64,000 bases of DNA from an uncultured Acidimicrobiales bacterium (lineage in GTDB: Bacteria; Actinomycetota; Acidimicrobiia; Acidimicrobiales; SZUA-35): positions 1 to 64,000 of the forward strand of contig CALIFY010000019.1 of assembly GCA_938021675.1 (NCBI GenBank). The letters are read 5' to 3'. Of the stretch, positions 45,573-53,955 are shown one piece after another. A program made the position numbers and the translations under genes. The notes beneath the pieces were generated by a model that saw nothing but the letters and a program-made list of their open reading frames with translations, was not told the DNA's origin and did not search any database. Numbering within the stretch: the stretch's first letter is position 1; each line of letters begins with the position of its first letter.

Positions 45573-46294
45573 GCAGTGGGAGCGAGGTCGAGGATTTCTG
45601 TGAGCGGCTAGGTCATCGTTTCAGCGACGATGAGTTGCTTACCCTCGCCCTGACGCACCGAAGTTATTGCGCCGAGAATCCGTCGACGTTATCGAACGAG
45701 CGACTGGAATTTCTCGGCGACTCGGTGCTCGGCCTCGTCGTAACCGATCACATCTATGCCTCGTACCCCGAGCTTCCCGAAGGCCAGTTGGCGAAGTTGC
45801 GGGCGTCGGTTGTCAACACCATCACGCTGGCCGAGCTCGCGATGAGCCTCGGCGTGGGCAAGCTGCTGCGGCTTGGGAAAGGCGAGGACCAATCCGGCGG
45901 CCGTGAGAAGGAGTCGATCCTGGCCGACGCGCTAGAGGCTATTCTTGGCTCGGTTTACGTCGACGGCGGATGGCCCGCTGCTCGAAAGGTCATCCTCGAC
46001 CTGACCCTGGACTCCATCATCGAAGCGGCTGAGCAGCCAGGTCGCAAGGACTACAAGACGCAACTTCAGGAACTTACCGCCCGCCTCTCTCTCGGGACAC
46101 CCGTCTACGAGATCAGCGGATCTGGTCCTGATCACGACAAGCGGTTCACCGCCATCACCATCGTCGACGGCGTTGCCCGTGGGCACGGGGCTGGTACTTC
46201 CAAAAAGCGGGCTGAGCAGGTAGCGGCCCGCTCTGCCTATGCGGCGGTACTTACCCTGCTTGGGAAGGGAGAATCCCGCAATGACCAACTTTGA
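45569..46294 (+). CDS. rnc: Ribonuclease III
   Basis: A 241-residue dsRNA endonuclease: ERLEFLGDS catalytic signature, KESILADALEAILGS with the second acidic set, and a dsRBD (DYKTQLQELTARL, KKRAEQVAARSAY). Codons for CERLGHRFSDDELL, a normal RNase III beginning, lie in frame before the first TTG (45635); between an in-frame TAA at 45551 and that TTG the only near-standard start is CTG 45569, which overlaps the acpP TGA (CTGA). CTG is therefore proposed. If wrong, the protein would start at TTG 45635 and lack helix one. Confidence 0.9.
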   Translation: MSSGSEVEDFCERLGHRFSDDELLTLALTHRSYCAENPSTLSNERLEFLGDSVLGLVVTDHIYASYPELPEGQLAKLRASVVNTITLAELAMSLGVGKLLRLGKGEDQSGGREKESILADALEAILGSVYVDGGWPAARKVILDLTLDSIIEAAEQPGRKDYKTQLQELTARLSLGTPVYEISGSGPDHDKRFTAITIVDGVARGHGAGTSKKRAEQVAARSAYAAVLTLLGKGESRNDQL

Positions 46295-47120
46295 ACTCCC
46301 CGAGGTCGAGACGCTCCGTCGCGATCTCGAGCGGGAGACAGCGACGCGAAAGATCAAATCGGCCGAGGCGGTGGTCCTCAAGTCTCTGCCCGGAGTCAAA
46401 GTCCGAAAGGACTTTGACCAGAACCTTGCCGGCGCCAAGGTTGTAGTTGCCGAGCGCCATGGATTACATCTTTTGCTTCGGCTGGACAACGACCACGTCA
46501 TCGTCATCCGGCTCGGTGAGAACGGCCGTCTCGAACGTGTGGCGTCGAAGGAAAAGCCAGCTGAAGACGTCGCCGCAATCATCCGGTTTACTCAAGGCGG
46601 CGACCTTCGATTCGCCGACAAAAAGGGATCGAGTTCGCTTCGGGTCTTCCACGAAGACGAACTTTCCAGCGCGCTGCCCGGACCGGACGAGATGGGCCTC
46701 GACCTGATGGAGAAACCCTTGTCGTGGGTTGACTTCGGACGGATGGTTACGGCCAGAAAAACGCCGCTGAAGCTATTGCTGACCGACCCATCGGTGTTTG
46801 TCGGCATCGGCGACATCTACTCGAACGAGATCCTGTTCGACGCCGGCCTACGTCACGATCGGGTGGCGACCGAGCTGTCGACCCAAGAGATCCGCCGGCT
46901 CTACCGGTCGGTCGTCGGGATCATGCACGACGCCATCAAGTACCGCGGGACGTCCCTCGCTGACCGTCCGTTCCTCGATCTCGGTGGTCAAGCGGGCGAG
47001 TTCGCCGACCACCTCGCGGTGTACGGGAAAGCCGGGGAGCTGAGTCCCCGGTCCCGTGAACCGATCCAAAAGACCAGCTTCAAGCACCAGGTCGTGTATT
47101 ACTGCAAGACGCAAGTCTGA
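46281..47120 (+). CDS. MutM/Fpg-like protein lacking the known glycosylase active site
   Basis: A 279-residue homologue of formamidopyrimidine-DNA glycosylase in the usual mutM position between rnc and smc. The fold is clear (ELPEVETLRRDL, LLLRLDNDHVIVIRLG, VGIGDIYSNEILFDAGL, YRGTSLADR). However the N-terminus is MTNFELPEVE where active enzymes have MPELPEVE, so the catalytic Pro is Phe and is preceded by extra residues. The conserved Lys of the RAKYL segment is replaced (RHGLHL), the gap-filling Met is Glu (RLGENG), the Asn of GNIY is Asp, and the C-terminal CPRC zinc finger reads SPRS with only one Cys left. It overlaps rnc by 14 bases with a GGGAG ribosome site. Glycosylase activity is unlikely. 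Confidence 0.88.
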   Translation: MTNFELPEVETLRRDLERETATRKIKSAEAVVLKSLPGVKVRKDFDQNLAGAKVVVAERHGLHLLLRLDNDHVIVIRLGENGRLERVASKEKPAEDVAAIIRFTQGGDLRFADKKGSSSLRVFHEDELSSALPGPDEMGLDLMEKPLSWVDFGRMVTARKTPLKLLLTDPSVFVGIGDIYSNEILFDAGLRHDRVATELSTQEIRRLYRSVVGIMHDAIKYRGTSLADRPFLDLGGQAGEFADHLAVYGKAGELSPRSREPIQKTSFKHQVVYYCKTQV

Positions 47121-47274: not shown

Positions 47275-50200
47275 GTGTTTCTCAAAGCGCTGACGATCAA
47301 GGGCTTCAAGTCGTTCGCCGATGCGGCGAACCTGCTGCTCGAGCCCGGGATTACGGTCGTTGTCGGACCGAACGGAAGCGGCAAGTCGAACGTGGTCGAT
47401 GCCATGGCCTGGGTACTCGGTGCCCAGGCACCTACGGCGGTGCGGTCTCAGAAGATGGAGGACGTCATCTTCGCCGGCACCGCGGCCCGCAAGGCTCTCG
47501 GCCGAGCCGAGGTGTCCCTCACCATCGACAACTCCGACGGACAGCTGCCGATCGACTTTACCGAAGTAACGATCACCAGAACGCTGTTTCGGACCGGTGA
47601 ATCCGAGTACGCCATAAACGGCGTCGGTTGTCGGCTACTCGACATTCAGGAACTCCTTTCGGACTCCGGAGTCGGCCGTCAGCAGCACATCATCGTGTCT
47701 CAGGGACGGATCGACTCGGTGCTGAACGCCCGACCCGAGGATCGCAGAGCGATCATCGAAGAAGCGGCCGGTGTTCTCAAGTACCGGAAGCGTCGGGAAC
47801 GGGCCGAACGCCGCCTGGCCGCCACCGGCGAAAATTTGGCACGGCTTCAGGATCTGACCCGCGAGGTCAAAAGGCAAATCCGGCCTCTTGAAAAGCAAGC
47901 GGAAGCCGCCCGTCGTCACGGAGCGGTGCTAACCGAGTTGACCGGGCTAAAGACCCACCTGGCTGGTCGAGAACTCAAGGCGTTGACCGGTCAGCTCGAA
48001 ACCGGACGCCGGTTGCAGATCACCTATGACGAGCGCGAATCCGAACTGTCGACAGGTCTGGCCTCCCTCGACGCCCGCATTCTTGAGCGAGAGTCTGAAC
48101 TGTCGGCCCTCGGTGCCTCAGACGTTGCCGATGTGTTGAGCGCGGCAAAGAGCATGGGGGAGCGGGCCCGCGGTCAGCGAAACGTCATTTCCGAGCGGAG
48201 AGCAAGGCTGGAGGGCGAGCTTCAGGCCGCCGTCGACGATGGGTTGGTGGCGAACCTGGAAGCTGAGTCGGCTCGACTGATCGCCGAGTTGGCAGTGGCG
48301 TCGGCCGACCTCGATTCGCTAAAACCCGAGTACGCCAAGCTCGAAACTTCCGAAGCTGAGCTGGTGACAGAGCAGCTCAGCTTCGACAGCGAGTGGGGCG
48401 ACACGATCGCGTTGTCACCGACCCAGGCGGCTGAGATCCGAGCTCGGATCGAAGCGTTGGGCGTGACCTCGGAGCGAAACGAACAGGAGCTGGCACGCCT
48501 CAGTAGTCGGATCGAGGCGCTCGACGAACGAGCCTCGACCGCAACCGCGGCTCGCGATCAGTCGATCGAGTCGCTGGCCTCCAGCGAGCGGGCTGAACCC
48601 GACCTGCTGGCCCGGCTTGAACAGGCTCGGGGGGAGGCCGAACGGTCCGAAGCCGAGTTGGAGGCCGTCCTCGACGAGCAGCGTGAAGCCGAGGCGACCG
48701 CCAACAAGTGGCAGGCCAGAGCCGAAGCACTCGATCAGGCGCTAGACGAAGCCAGAACCCGCGCTGGGGCCGAAGCCTTGGCCGCCAGCGATGGTGTGCT
48801 CGGTACGCTGCTCGATCTCGTCGATATCGATGAGGGCTGGGAACAGGCGGTTGAAGCCGCGGTTGGCGATGCCCTAGCCGCCGTGGTGATCGACGGGGAC
48901 GCCAATGCCCGCGTCGCACTTGGGACGCTTGACGATCAAGGTCTGGCCGGAGCGGTGTTGACCCTTGGGCTCGATGCGGGCGAAGCCACCGAGCAACGCC
49001 CGTTCACCGAAGCCGACGACCGTGTACCCGAGTCTGGCTGCCGAGTCCGGTCGCTTGTCCGTCCTCTTCGGCCAGACGTCGGACCACTTCTCGACGTATT
49101 GATCGGCAACGCCGTCGCCCTCGACGGTACGTGGCGTCAGTTCCTCGACATCATCGTCGACAATCCCGGCCGGGTGTTCGTAACCAGACAGGGCGATCGG
49201 TTCAGCGAGCGCGGTTGGCGGCTCAGCCAAGGCGGGTCTGGTGGAGCGACCGGCGCAGCCCTCGAAGAGGCTCGGGCCATGGAGCTGGAGACCGGCGAGA
49301 TCCGCGAACAGGTCCGCCAACGGGCGTTGACCGCTCGAACTACCGCCGGGTCGGCGGCAAAGGCAATGAAAGAGATCGAGTCGGATCTGGCCGGTTGTCG
49401 ATCCGCCGGCGAGCGGGCCGCCAACGCCGTCGATCGAGCGGTCGCAGACTTGGCCAGGGTCGAAGGAGACCGGGCCGCTCTGGTAGAACAGCGTGCCGCC
49501 ATCTTCGCCAGCAAACAGGCTGATGCCAGCGAGCTGCGGAAGCTGATGGCCGAGTTGCCATCGGTCGAGAGCGAAGAGGAGGAGCACCGAAACCGCGCCG
49601 AGGCCTTGACCCGATCGAGGGCGACCCTCGAAGATCGGACCCGCAAGGTCGCCGGAATGCGGACCGATTTAGAAGTGAGAATCGGAGCTATCGAGGAGCG
49701 CCGCGATCTGCTGCGCACCCGGCAGGCCGAGACCGAGTCCCGGTTGGAACGGTTGGTGAACGAGCGACGGATCGCCGAGACCCGCCGAGTCCGTATCGAG
49801 GGGGCCATCGCCAGGGTAAACGGCCTTGATCAGCGGTTGATCACCGCCGCCTCCACTCTGGCAACCTGGGTTGAGCAGCTCCAAACCGAGCAGCGAGCGC
49901 AGTCCGAAGCGGCTCGAGAGGTATCTGACAAACTGGCCAGCGATCGTGGCGACAGAGCGGCATCGGAGAAGGAACTGGCCGAACTTCGGGAACGGCGAAG
50001 CCGATTGGAGCTTTCCGAAACCGAGCATCGGGTCAAGTTGGAAGCCTTGACCGAGGCGGTGCGGCGAGAGCTCGACACCGACCCGGAAATTGCTATGACC
50101 ACCGAGTGTCCAGAGCTGGAACCCGGGGTCATGCCCGAACACCGGGTTCGCGATCTTGAGCGAGAACTGAAGATCATGGGCGCCATCAACCCGTTGGCCC

Positions 50201-50940
50201 TTGAGGAGTTTGAGGAGCTCAAGATCCGCCATGAGTTCCTAGAAGGACAGCTCAACGATGTAAAGATCGCTCGTCGTGATCTACACAAGCTGATCCGATC
50301 GATCGACGATGAGATCGTCGGCGTGTTCTCGGCGGCGTTCGCCGATGTGTCGACCAATTTCAACCAGCTGTTTCAGACCCTGTTCCCCGGTGGGAAAGGG
50401 GCGGCCAAGCTGACCAACGGTGAGGATCTGCTGAACTGCGGGATCGAGATCGAGGCCAAACCATCGGGCAAGAACGTCAAGAAACTGTCGCTGCTTTCGG
50501 GAGGCGAACGATCGCTCGTCGCACTGGCTTTCCTGTTCGCAGTGTTTCGGAGCCGACCATCCCCGTTCTATGTTATGGACGAGGTCGAGGCAGCGCTCGA
50601 TGATATGAACCTGTCGCGATTCCTGGCGCTCCTCGAGGAGTTCCGCTCCGAAGCGCAGCTCATCGTCGTCAGCCACCAGAAGCGCACGATGGAAGCAGCG
50701 GACATCCTGTATGGGGTCACCATGAAACCGGGTGGTTCGTCGAAGGTGGTCACAGAGAAAGTCGACGAGCGAAAAGCTGGGTCCGTCCCGACGGTCGACG
50801 CCACCGGGCAGAACGACGAAAACGGCGCCGATGGCGAAGGCAGCGACAGCGACGGCGCCTCTCCTCGCCCCGACGAAGAGATCGACCTCACCGAGGAGTC
50901 AGGGCAATCGTTGGAACCAGAGGAGGCTGAAGCCGGCTGA
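47275..50940 (+). CDS. smc: Chromosome segregation protein SMC
   Basis: A 1221-residue SMC ATPase. N-terminal VFLKALTIKGFKSFAD, Walker A GPNGSGKSN (about 31-39), a coiled coil, a hinge at about residues 500-660 (GVLGTLLDLVDIDEGW, GNAVALDGTW), a second coiled coil, then signature LSGGERSLVALAFLFA and Walker B PFYVMDEVEAALDD. An acidic Asp/Glu-rich tail of about 60 residues follows the ATPase head. GTG 47275 was chosen for the canonical N-terminus; the frame is open to 47056. It forms condensin with ScpA/ScpB. Its last 42 bases overlap the convergent VWA gene. Confidence 0.95.
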   Translation: MFLKALTIKGFKSFADAANLLLEPGITVVVGPNGSGKSNVVDAMAWVLGAQAPTAVRSQKMEDVIFAGTAARKALGRAEVSLTIDNSDGQLPIDFTEVTITRTLFRTGESEYAINGVGCRLLDIQELLSDSGVGRQQHIIVSQGRIDSVLNARPEDRRAIIEEAAGVLKYRKRRERAERRLAATGENLARLQDLTREVKRQIRPLEKQAEAARRHGAVLTELTGLKTHLAGRELKALTGQLETGRRLQITYDERESELSTGLASLDARILERESELSALGASDVADVLSAAKSMGERARGQRNVISERRARLEGELQAAVDDGLVANLEAESARLIAELAVASADLDSLKPEYAKLETSEAELVTEQLSFDSEWGDTIALSPTQAAEIRARIEALGVTSERNEQELARLSSRIEALDERASTATAARDQSIESLASSERAEPDLLARLEQARGEAERSEAELEAVLDEQREAEATANKWQARAEALDQALDEARTRAGAEALAASDGVLGTLLDLVDIDEGWEQAVEAAVGDALAAVVIDGDANARVALGTLDDQGLAGAVLTLGLDAGEATEQRPFTEADDRVPESGCRVRSLVRPLRPDVGPLLDVLIGNAVALDGTWRQFLDIIVDNPGRVFVTRQGDRFSERGWRLSQGGSGGATGAALEEARAMELETGEIREQVRQRALTARTTAGSAAKAMKEIESDLAGCRSAGERAANAVDRAVADLARVEGDRAALVEQRAAIFASKQADASELRKLMAELPSVESEEEEHRNRAEALTRSRATLEDRTRKVAGMRTDLEVRIGAIEERRDLLRTRQAETESRLERLVNERRIAETRRVRIEGAIARVNGLDQRLITAASTLATWVEQLQTEQRAQSEAAREVSDKLASDRGDRAASEKELAELRERRSRLELSETEHRVKLEALTEAVRRELDTDPEIAMTTECPELEPGVMPEHRVRDLERELKIMGAINPLALEEFEELKIRHEFLEGQLNDVKIARRDLHKLIRSIDDEIVGVFSAAFADVSTNFNQLFQTLFPGGKGAAKLTNGEDLLNCGIEIEAKPSGKNVKKLSLLSGGERSLVALAFLFAVFRSRPSPFYVMDEVEAALDDMNLSRFLALLEEFRSEAQLIVVSHQKRTMEAADILYGVTMKPGGSSKVVTEKVDERKAGSVPTVDATGQNDENGADGEGSDSDGASPRPDEEIDLTEESGQSLEPEEAEAG

Positions 50941-51870
50941 GAGGGCGAGCAATACCAGGCCGGCCGCTACGAACCAATCGGTGATCTCACGGTTCACGTC
51001 TTCGAATCCGACGGCCGAACCGATATCGGAATACACCGCTTCTAGCTCTTCTAGCGACGAGGCGGTAAAGAAGGCGCCCTCGGTCTGCTCGGCGATAGTC
51101 CGCAAGTTGTCCTCGCGGACGGGAACTCTGATCGGGTCGGTCTCTACGAACGGTGTTCGGGGGTCGTCATAGACGATCGTGCCGTTCTCGGTGCCGAACG
51201 CGATGGTTGAGATTGGGATATCGGCGTCGATCGCCGCGTCGACCGCGTCGGCATCGGCCCGGCCGACCGTCGTCTCACCGTCGGAGAGCAAGACGATCCG
51301 AGCCGGAGGCGGTTCGCCGGTCGCATCGGCCGGGGCGTTCGTCAAGGCATCGAGCGAAGTGAAGATGGCCTCGCCGATGCCGGTTGACTCTGCGAGACGA
51401 AGCCCGTCGATAGCGGCCAAGGCCGGCGCCCGCTCGGTGGTCGGGGTTACCAAGACCGAGGCCGTCCCGGCAAAGGACACGATTCCCACATTTAAGGTAG
51501 GCGGCAACTCCTCGACGAAACGGCTGGCAGCGGCTTGTGCTGCGGTCAGCCGATCTGGGTCGACGTCGGTTGACTTCATCGAGAGGGAGACATCGATGGC
51601 GATGATGACGGTGGCCCGCTCCCGGGGAACGCGCACCTGTCTGGCCGGTTGAGCAAACCCAACGACCAGCGTGGCCAATGCGACGAGGAACACCGCGGCC
51701 GGGATGTGGCGGCGGAGCCCAGGCCGCTTCGGGGCCACCGAATCGAACAGGTCAGACGAGCTGAACCGGAGTGCGTAGGTGCGCCGGCGCCGCTGCAACA
51801 AGAGGTAGGTGATGGCGATCGCCGCCACCGCGAGCAGAAACCAAAGACGCCAGGTTGATAGGAACGTCAT
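50899..51870 (-). CDS. BatA-like von Willebrand factor A membrane protein
   Basis: A 323-residue protein with two N-terminal hydrophobic helices, a VWA domain carrying the MIDAS motif (IIAIDVSLSMKS, then SDGETT) and a C-terminal hydrophobic helix. ATG 51870 overlaps the DUF58 stop (ATGA). Together with MoxR and DUF58 it forms a chaperone-like complex on the outer face of the membrane; the role in actinobacteria is unclear. Its 3' end overlaps smc by 42 bases. Confidence 0.87.
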   Translation of the reverse strand: MTFLSTWRLWFLLAVAAIAITYLLLQRRRRTYALRFSSSDLFDSVAPKRPGLRRHIPAAVFLVALATLVVGFAQPARQVRVPRERATVIIAIDVSLSMKSTDVDPDRLTAAQAAASRFVEELPPTLNVGIVSFAGTASVLVTPTTERAPALAAIDGLRLAESTGIGEAIFTSLDALTNAPADATGEPPPARIVLLSDGETTVGRADADAVDAAIDADIPISTIAFGTENGTIVYDDPRTPFVETDPIRVPVREDNLRTIAEQTEGAFFTASSLEELEAVYSDIGSAVGFEDVNREITDWFVAAGLVLLALSAGFSLLWFQRLP

Positions 51871-52823
51871 CGGCGTTCTCCATGGTTGGTCGCTCCGGTC
51901 GAACCGGTTTGGCGATGTCGTCGGCCGGCGACAAACGATACGAGGTCGTCCAACCACTGCCGTTCGGTGGACAGGATGAGATGGTCGACCTTGGCCGAGC
52001 GCAGGGTGGCGGCCAGCTGGTGCTGTCGTTCCGTCGCCGCGTCCGAGTACTTTTTCCGAACGGAAGCCTTCTGGGTGGCGATCTCGCGCTCGGCACCGGT
52101 TGCCGGATCGCGGACGAGTATCACGCCGATGTTCGGTAGCTCGAACTCTCGGGGGTCGGACACTTGGATGGCCACAACATCATGGCGACGAGCCACGACG
52201 TTCAGGGTGTTCTCCCAGCCTGAGTCCACCAAGAAGTCGGAGATCACTACGACGAGACCGCGGCGGCGGGCAATCGAGCCGAGACGCCCGAGCCCGTCGG
52301 CCAGGTTGGTGACGCCACTGTTGTCGGTGCGTGGTGTCTCGGCGATCTGGTGGAGTATCCGGAGCAGATGCTGTCGTGAGCTCCGCGCCGGTACCAGTTC
52401 CGGATCGCCTCTTCCGGTGAGTACCGCACCGATCTGATTGCCGTCCCTGGCGGTCAAGAAGCCGACGGCGGCCGCCGCGGCGAGGACGAGATCTCGCTTC
52501 TCACAGTTCACGGTGCCAAAGTCGAGACGCGACGATCGGTCGACGAGCAGCCAGGTTTGCAATTCGCGTTCGGCGATCGTTTGGCGAATGTATGTCTGTT
52601 GGAGACGGGCGGTCACGTTCCAATCGATGCGTCGAACGTCGTCTCCCGGCGCATACTTCCTAGTTTCGCCTAGCTCCGATCCGTGGCCTGGAACGAGACC
52701 GCGGTGTTCGCCGTGGAGTAGGCCGTCGAGGCGGTGGGTTACGTCGAGTTCGAGCCGGCGCAGTATCTCTCGGGTTGAGCTATCGACGACGTCGAGCGGA
52801 CCGGGCGGATGTCGATCAGCCAT
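51867..52823 (-). CDS. DUF58 domain protein
   Basis: A 318-residue soluble protein with the DUF58 signature (ETRKYAPGDDVRRIDWN) and a degenerate VWA-like fold (LLVDRSSRLDFG). It overlaps both neighbours: eight bases with the MoxR gene and four with the VWA gene. It is probably the adaptor between MoxR and the VWA protein. Confidence 0.88.
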   Translation of the reverse strand: MADRHPPGPLDVVDSSTREILRRLELDVTHRLDGLLHGEHRGLVPGHGSELGETRKYAPGDDVRRIDWNVTARLQQTYIRQTIAERELQTWLLVDRSSRLDFGTVNCEKRDLVLAAAAAVGFLTARDGNQIGAVLTGRGDPELVPARSSRQHLLRILHQIAETPRTDNSGVTNLADGLGRLGSIARRRGLVVVISDFLVDSGWENTLNVVARRHDVVAIQVSDPREFELPNIGVILVRDPATGAEREIATQKASVRKKYSDAATERQHQLAATLRSAKVDHLILSTERQWLDDLVSFVAGRRHRQTGSTGATNHGERR

Positions 52824-53955
52824 CGGTGGGTGGTGCCCCTTGCGATGATGGGGCCTTAGCCCGTTCGGTTCCGACCGGCGTCACGTTGGCCGCCGGTACG
52901 GTTCCCAGAATCCGGTTGAGGATGTCGTCGGCGGTCAACCCTTTGGCCAGCGCCTCATAACTGAGGATCAGTCGATGGCGGAGCACGTCCCGAGCGACGT
53001 CGAACATGTCTTGGGGAACGACATAGGACCGGCCTCGAAGAAGGGCGAGGGCCCGTGATGCGGCCACCAACCCGAGGGTTGCCCGAGGGCTGACGCCGAA
53101 CTCGATAAGCGGGGCGAGTTCCTGCAGGCCCCGAACGCCTGGCTCTCGGGTCGCCATGACCAGATCGACCGCGTACTGCGCCACCGCGTTGTCGACATAC
53201 ACACGGTCTGTCGTTTTTTGGAGTTCCTCCAGCTCGGTCAGGCCCATCACCGTCGACGCCTCGGGGATCGACACGCCGACCCTGCGAACGATTTCCAACT
53301 CCTCGGTAGGTGACGGGTACCCGACCGTCACCTTCATGAGAAAGCGGTCTCGTTGGGCTTCTGGCAGCGTGTAAACACCCTCCGACTCGATCGGGTTTTG
53401 GGTCGCCAACACAAGGAACGGGCTCGGTAGCGAACGCGTTTCGCCACCGATCGAGACCTGCCGTTCGGCCATGACCTCCAGCAGGGCAGACTGGACTTTG
53501 GCTGGTGCTCGGTTGATCTCATCGGTCAATACCAGGTTGGCGAACACCGGGCCCCACTCGATGTCGAACCGTTCATCCGAGGCCCGCCAAATCCTGGTGC
53601 CGACCAGATCTGAAGGAAGTAGGTCGGGGGTGAACTGCAAGCGGACAAAGCTGCCCCCGATGGCCTGGGCCAGCGTGGAGACCGCCAGCGTCTTAGCCAA
53701 GCCGGGCAGTCCTTCCAGAAGTATGTGACCGCGGGCGAGCAGCGCCACCAAGAGCCGCTCGACCATGTGGTCTTGTCCGACGATGACTTTCTTGATCTCG
53801 AAGAGTACGCGTTCCAGCTCGACGGCGGCCGCCCGGTTGTCGTCGGTTGTGGTCGTGACCGCCCGAGGGTCGGCATGGTTATTTGGCGTGGCGGTTGATT
53901 CGTTTGAGCTCGGGGGCACCGAGGGCTCGGTTTCGGACGAAGCGGTCTGGTCCAT
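52816..53955 (-). CDS. MoxR-type AAA+ ATPase
   Basis: A 379-residue AAA+ ATPase. After a Ser/Thr/Pro-rich about 40-residue lead come GQDHMVERLLVALLARGHILLEGLPG (Walker A GLPGLAKT), VLTDEINRA (Walker B), FLVLATQNPIE and YTLPEAQRDRF sensor regions, and the lid domain. It drives the MoxR-DUF58-VWA operon. ATG 53955 is 60 bases from the divergent response-regulator start. Confidence 0.92.
   Translation of the reverse strand: MDQTASSETEPSVPPSSNESTATPNNHADPRAVTTTTDDNRAAAVELERVLFEIKKVIVGQDHMVERLLVALLARGHILLEGLPGLAKTLAVSTLAQAIGGSFVRLQFTPDLLPSDLVGTRIWRASDERFDIEWGPVFANLVLTDEINRAPAKVQSALLEVMAERQVSIGGETRSLPSPFLVLATQNPIESEGVYTLPEAQRDRFLMKVTVGYPSPTEELEIVRRVGVSIPEASTVMGLTELEELQKTTDRVYVDNAVAQYAVDLVMATREPGVRGLQELAPLIEFGVSPRATLGLVAASRALALLRGRSYVVPQDMFDVARDVLRHRLILSYEALAKGLTADDILNRILGTVPAANVTPVGTERAKAPSSQGAPPTDG

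Follow-up and report, generated by a model that had tools for sequence, protein, structure and literature searches.

The gene between rnc and smc in this Acidimicrobiales genome encodes what is very probably a conserved MutM (Fpg) orthologue that has lost catalysis, a pseudoenzyme, as judged from residue alignments, phylogeny and selection among related genomes. The gene, hereafter the slot gene, occupies positions 46281..47120 on the plus strand of the window, the 64,000-nucleotide stretch of DNA that was analysed. We lean, with modest confidence, towards a pseudoenzyme whose binding role on a basic surface was retained after another MutM took over repair.

The gene, its neighbourhood and its fold

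The degenerate MutM/Fpg orthologue, recognised by profile searches, alignment and an AlphaFold model, is read in a single frame of 279 aa with no interruption in the ORF list or its translation. The slot gene overlaps the 3' end of rnc (46294) by 14 nt, and GGGAGAA precedes its ATG, in line with the intact, rnc-overlapping frame and ribosome site described in an earlier sequence-only reading of this DNA. The rnc gene (45635..46294, plus strand) encodes an RNase III domain and a dsrm domain, with a real start that possibly lies upstream of the listed TTG, and smc (47275..50940, plus strand, start approximate) lies downstream of the slot gene, the order by Pfam being a YceD-domain gene, a plsX-like gene, an acyl-carrier-like gene, rnc, the slot gene and smc. 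By eye, ftsY-like and ffh-like genes stand further downstream of smc, and VWA-, DUF58- and MoxR-type ATPase-like genes lie on the minus strand directly after it (50899-53955).

The same arrangement is found across 80 named slot loci, of which 78 have rnc upstream and 75 have smc downstream. The exceptions for rnc are L095, at a contig end, and L063, over 3.9 kb searched; those for smc are L036, L062, L066 and L075, all at contig ends, and L039, over 4.9 kb searched. Both L063 and L039 carry degenerate slot-type genes and are possible breaks of the slot, without rnc and without smc, respectively. In L040, L049, L054, L065, L068 and L088, about 1-2.5 kb separates the MutM-like gene from smc, with rnc within about 0.2 kb upstream. 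Ordinary MutM occupies the same rnc-smc slot in outgroups, so the position is inherited and gives no sign of a new partnership.

On the evidence of profile matches and the predicted structure, the window protein keeps the MutM/Fpg fold along its whole length. It passes the curated cut-offs of both Fapy_DNA_glyco (PF01149; E 2.7e-19, 70.4 bits against 25.5) and H2TH (PF06831; E 5.7e-15, 55.5 bits against 34.7), and it has no zf-FPG Pfam match up to E 1. Its score with TIGR00577 (fpg), 167.1 bits, is below the equivalog cut-off of 203.3 bits, and the Nei models are not reached (NF007763, 41.5 of 252 bits; NF040775, 35.3 of 400 bits). An AlphaFold model built with 72 window and locus sequences (pLDDT 94.1, pTM 0.89) superposes on Bacillus MutM 1r2y with Z 32.2 and rmsd 2.6 over 271 aligned residues at 29% identity, which agrees with the sequence-only reading that the overall fold is kept, and Foldseek matches the model over its whole length to 2f5q (E 3.4e-27).

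Loss of catalytic and recognition residues

The window protein was aligned to E. coli MutM, whose numbers here leave out the initiator Met; this numbering, like most of the residue roles, is what we take to hold for MutM. The roles of P2, E3, K60, N174, R264 and the intercalation loop follow the cited part of a published account, in which K60, N174 and R264 of Bacillus MutM form a family-wide phosphate grip (PMC3188539). With all coordinates on the plus strand, Phe4 (46290..46292) stands in the window protein where the catalytic N-terminal Pro (P1) belongs, behind a two-residue N-terminal extension. The phosphate-gripping Lys56, Asn168 and Arg258 have become Leu62 (46464..46466), Asp178 (46812..46814, in the H2TH region) and Gln270, and the void fillers Met73, Arg108 and Phe110 have become Glu80 (46518..46520) and, in the intercalation loop, Lys115 and Ser117 (46623..46631). 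His70 is replaced by Arg77. The former zinc finger (47043..47117) now reads SPRSR...YYCKTQV, with Cys243 and Cys246 changed to Ser255 and Ser258, Cys266 lost and Cys263 kept as Cys275, and it includes Arg259 of a basic signature considered below. Kept in the alignment are E2, E5, K154, Y170 and the one zinc Cys.

The alignment bears out the changes at Pro, Lys, Met, Asn and three of the four zinc Cys that had been noticed from the sequence, and to these are added H70, R108, F110 and R258, as well as a canonical MutM elsewhere in the genome. Loss of the Pro does not depend on where translation begins, since the residue before ELPE is Phe for any start codon. A start-codon artefact can also be rejected across the group, because the Pro column is non-Pro in 69 of the 75 degenerate rows with letters there.

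A conserved group under purifying selection

Judged from sequence comparisons, the slot gene is kept under strong purifying selection in a large group of environmental actinobacteria. Every one of 41 genomes searched, the window's own included, has an Fpg-family match, and the window's family, with 25 genomes, yielded slot copies in 23. The sequence-only reading had allowed that close relatives might still carry the Pro and the zinc finger; all 23 family copies have instead lost three zinc Cys together with the recognition residues, and the Pro column is non-Pro in 22, the 23rd (G021, identical with L054) having a Pro three residues in from the start. In less closely related members of the order both Pro and zinc are retained, an indication of the ancestral state. 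The slot gene was not found in G003 or G007, where G003 gave no rnc match and the G007 rnc and G003 smc matches are partial. At the G007 locus (L189, same genus), a minus-strand amidohydrolase-like gene (420-1331, by eye) lies directly upstream of smc, whose match there contains one in-frame TGA.

A scan of named genomes, from which the best 80 of 576 confirmed stretches were taken, gave titles that are mostly Acidimicrobiia, Acidimicrobiales, Acidimicrobiaceae, actinobacterium or Actinomycetota, nearly all of them MAGs, with two titled Acidobacteria and one Thermoanaerobacterales. Altogether 104 slot rows were compared and divided by five recognition residues into 76 degenerate, 5 intermediate and 23 intact, a row counting as degenerate when it keeps no more than one of these five and no more than one of the four zinc Cys. 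The 76 rows correspond to 75 genes, L019 and L187 being the same one, and make up the orthologous group with shared losses that had been proposed for searching; near-copies among the rows, such as L107-L110 among the 19 near intact ones, make the effective numbers smaller. Two rows of the intact class, L181 and L182, do not show P1. In L182 (G035) the intact-type slot MutM lies in two frames, through a frameshift or a sequence error, and is canonical where covered; no second MutM was found in G035 at E up to 1e-20.

Across the 76 degenerate rows the Pro column is changed in 69, still Pro in 6 and without letters in 1. That the protein has kept an enzymatic activity, as a lyase or a monofunctional glycosylase whose chemistry has changed to use E2/E5 or another nucleophile on another substrate, is a reading we regard as quite unlikely. 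It draws on the retention of E2 (70 of 75 rows with letters) and E5 (75 of 75), on the four rows (L091, L095-L097) in which an N-terminal Pro is still possible, and on L024, a basal relative that resembles an enzyme with changed specificity. Against it, the Pro has been replaced by Leu, Phe, Tyr, Ala, Val, Ile, Arg or Asn with no consistent substitute, and the phosphate grip known in the cited part of the Bacillus MutM account as K60/N174/R264 (PMC3188539) is gone.

The degenerate genes show little sign of decay. No stops were found inside the slot matches of the genomes searched, the full-length degenerate rows have open frames of 275-284 aa, and dN/dS (YN00) is 0.006-0.099 in 12 of the 22 degenerate pairs taken and 0.034-0.063 in 4 of the 6 intact ones; the other pairs, the window's own among them, gave no value, probably through saturation. 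The C-terminal residues Ser255, Arg257, Arg259, Cys275 and Gln278 are invariant in all 76 degenerate rows. A decaying pseudogene or assembly artefact, which the many lost residues and the two-frame copy in G035 might suggest, is therefore extremely improbable and was rejected on the open frames, the low dN/dS, and the five invariant C-terminal sites in rows drawn from many assemblies; the suggestion that the gene is probably selected holds. Compared with the window's genome, the slot copy shows higher identity than the canonical copy in all 8 genomes of the genus that carry both, and in 12 of 20 family-wide.

Stepwise dismantling

The degenerate proteins share one ancestry. A 95-row tree places 74 degenerate rows in a single clade (SH-aLRT 96), and these make a clade of 78 together with L093, L029, L101 and L104 (SH-aLRT 97). 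For a smaller choice of 26 degenerate rows set among additional outgroups, a second tree gave SH-aLRT values of 95 and 96, with L024 joining next (91); when the trait columns were masked, the same groupings were recovered at lower SH-aLRT (88, 90 and 85).

The five rows at the base of the clade (L024, L029, L093, L101 and L104) all keep the four zinc Cys and differ in what else they have lost. L024 has lost M73, F110 and N168 and keeps P1, E2, K56, R108 and zinc; L029 and L101, with none of the five recognition residues left, keep P1, E2 and zinc; and L093 and L104 have lost the five recognition residues as well as P1. On this distribution the recognition residues were lost first, and the Pro nucleophile and the zinc finger later. 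The Pro column is still Pro in 6 of the 76 zinc-lost rows, so the order in which Pro and zinc disappeared was not fixed. Outside the dead clade, L103 (6004-6837) has canonical catalytic and recognition residues and changes at three of four zinc Cys; it is apparently a canonical zincless MutM, to go by its residues, and a separate case.

A second, canonical MutM

On a different contig (C14) the window's genome carries a MutM that is fully canonical. A second MutM, counted at at least 50% identity to P0002, was sought in 41 relatives (E up to 1e-20) and in 66 named-locus genomes (43 at 1e-20 and 23 at 1e-10), which, with two shared, make 105 genomes. Where the slot copy is dismantled (at most one of five recognition residues), 71 of 79 genomes yielded a second MutM, as against 0 of 23 with an intact slot copy, a co-occurrence that is essentially one evolutionary event, so that the counts are not independent. 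Among these 71 second copies, a check of the residues showed 51 to be canonical; 3 are partial matches (L045, L085 and L100), and the rest, from the 1e-10 search, were counted by identity. The 54 full-length second copies that were extracted, which include those of G003 and G007 (both have one) and one gene fetched twice, all carry the 14 canonical residues checked. Some intact-slot genomes have weaker Fpg/Nei matches, at 31-36% identity.

The second copies cluster with MutMs from other classes of the phylum (33-row set, SH-aLRT 100), which are 48-61% identical to P0002. An origin as a duplicate from within or beside the dismantled slot clade was rejected (AU test, p 0.0004). From this phylogeny it is likely that the second MutM was acquired from outside, while an older duplication may be its origin instead. 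No second MutM was found in the L024 genome (98% complete), in which three of the five recognition residues are already lost, so the first losses may precede the arrival of the second copy.

Nor was a second MutM found in 8 of the 79 dismantled-slot genomes (G006, G014, L063, L079, L082, L086, L089 and L090). The last five of these form one clade of small assemblies (1.3-1.9 Mb, completeness not known), presumably marine from their isolate names, in which the dead slot protein has dN/dS of 0.018-0.043 (three pairs). Each of the five small genomes has one other H2TH-domain match, which is of another Fpg/Nei type in the four that were read. In these four (L221, L223, L224 and L225) the Fpg/Nei-type protein starts MPEILEIEAYRR; to the eye it looks similar to L032, a gene elsewhere in the window's genome (MPEGVEIEMYRR). 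If the slot protein served solely to regulate or inhibit the second, canonical MutM, as a decoy or in a heterodimer for instance, this would fit the strong co-occurrence of the two genes; such a role is rendered distinctly improbable by the dead protein persisting in 5 of 5 members of the small-genome clade where no second MutM was found, their completeness not being known, and by the presence of the basic signature in intact slot MutMs whose genomes yielded no second copy.

Charge and a conserved basic signature

Loss of catalysis runs in parallel with a shift in charge, the mean net charge falling from +5.6 in 22 intact slot proteins to +0.8 in 5 intermediate and -3.2 in 75 degenerate ones, while the 54 second copies have +5.0. 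The shift is weaker in the window protein, which has a net charge of +1 and a pI of 7.9. The old DNA-interface sites are poorly conserved in the degenerate rows. Of 265 sites tested, 15 are almost invariant in degenerate rows and variable in second copies, and 8 of these 15 slot-specific sites are Lys or Arg (hypergeometric 0.0004 against the composition of the window protein, in a test chosen post hoc).

The basic signature is made up of residues in helix 201-220 together with Lys24, Lys26, Lys53 and Arg259. In the predicted helix (46881..46940, plus strand) Gln202, Arg205, Arg206, Arg209, His216 and Lys220 fall on one face and span about 100 degrees of the helix wheel, and the stretch with the three Lys, identified like the helix face from conservation among the rows, lies at 46350..46439 (plus strand). 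Almost invariant across the 76 degenerate rows, the signature is mostly present in the 19 near intact slot rows as well, and it varies among the 54 second copies. With near-copies counted in, all 76 degenerate and all 19 near intact rows have Arg205, Arg206 and Arg209; His216 is His in just 11 of the 19. As a whole the signature is absent from E. coli MutM, the second copies and a set of slot or rnc-linked MutMs at greater distance (L176, L177, L184, L212, L214 and L220), and partial in L178, with overlap at single sites in the second copies (Arg206 is Arg in 29 of 54, Arg257 in 45 of 54). Its presence in near intact slot MutMs and absence from these others indicate that it is older than the loss of catalysis and is not needed for MutM activity generally. 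A C-terminal signature pattern matches 53 of 90 known degenerate rows, repeats included. In another family of the phylum, L218 and L219 share most of the basic helix signature (QERRR...), and both loci have an rnc match.

Variability at these sites in canonical MutMs suggests that the signature residues are surface-exposed, although they may have a structural role instead. That a basic signature is conserved in proteins otherwise acidic on average hints at a partner that is itself acidic, either a nucleic acid met through a new face or a protein. The acidic C-terminal tail of SMC was considered for this partner and rejected: such a tail is seen in the window's SMC, L035, L037 and L038, but over 51 degenerate loci with a readable tail the mean is -1.6, the majority being short and close to neutral.

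The sequence-only reading had proposed a DNA- or RNA-binding protein evolved from MutM, perhaps working with SMC or RNase III. Descent from MutM and the unlikeness to a normal glycosylase have stood; binding of DNA in the old groove is disfavoured, the canonical phosphate contacts examined (K56, H70, N168 and R258) being lost. A binder that uses the old MutM groove together with SMC or RNase III is, in our estimate, unlikely. It would be consistent with the intact predicted fold and H2TH domain, the retention of K154, Y170 and the H2TH glycines in degenerate slot proteins, the place of the gene between rnc and smc in most loci, and a window protein that is not acidic overall. Yet the groove contacts H70, M73, R108, F110, N168 and R258 are highly variable in degenerate rows, K56 is mostly Leu, and the mean net charge of these rows is negative; as for the partners, the case for SMC or RNase III is one of position, in a slot that ordinary MutM holds in outgroups, and the acidic SMC tail is not general. 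Nucleic-acid binding by a different, basic surface is possible.

A proposed retained role, and relation to known systems

In the pseudoenzyme reading that we lean towards, the slot MutM would have gained a second, non-catalytic role on its basic surface before catalysis was lost. Once another MutM had taken over 8-oxoguanine repair, the catalytic half of the slot MutM would have been free to decay, while the binding half was retained and the second role now maintains the gene. The present protein would be a non-catalytic binding or scaffold factor for a conserved acidic partner, protein or nucleic acid, engaged by the basic surface rather than as DNA clamped in the old groove. It is possible, though we put it forward tentatively, that the rnc-linked MutM of this actinobacterial lineage was a two-job protein, a glycosylase with an added non-catalytic role in the rnc/smc neighbourhood through a basic outer surface, such that the still-canonical copies bearing the signature perform the second role too and the dead clade is a natural separation-of-function.

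The nearest known relative, rnc-linked actinobacterial MutM/Fpg, shares with the slot protein its position, whole-length fold, H2TH domain and LPE motif; unlike it, the slot protein is without Pro, K56, M73, R108, F110, N168, R258 and three Cys, and slot proteins are acidic on average over the clade. The zincless-finger Nei and NEIL1 types are enzymes with catalytic residues, which the slot protein, in contrast, has also lost. Loss of the zinc ligands is common to both, and in the cited part of the literature on these types the finger fold is predicted to be retained (PMC3188539). Another parallel is AlkD2, a glycosylase orthologue without the damage-recognition element that, in the portion of the report cited, binds DNA weakly and does not excise alkylpurines (PMC4433238). 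Like the slot protein, AlkD2 is kept beside an active enzyme of very similar structure and lacks the damage-recognition element; it differs in belonging to the HEAT-like repeat superfamily and having lost a helix, whereas the slot protein has lost point residues and kept a basic signature (PMC4433238). In Mycobacterium tuberculosis, Fpg2 (Rv0944) is truncated, being complete in M. smegmatis and M. avium, and has no catalytic N-terminus beside a catalytically conserved, rnc-linked fpg1, according to the cited part of that study (PMC2734929). The mycobacterial case is thus the reverse of the slot clade, since there the rnc-linked copy keeps the catalytic residues and here the rnc-linked copy has lost them (PMC2734929). 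Searches of the open-access literature gave no paper describing a group of dead MutMs, the Fpg/Nei papers among the matches listed included, as far as their available portions extend.

Family searches match the slot genes well to Fpg/MutM models, so annotation could over-call repair enzymes here, and in most slot-clade genomes the canonical MutM lies elsewhere. The slot clade would mark a stepwise route from an enzyme to an apparent non-enzyme, beside a second copy from another lineage and with intermediates still alive. If the reading of a retained role is true, the dead orthologues would provide a clean way to find the non-repair function of MutM.
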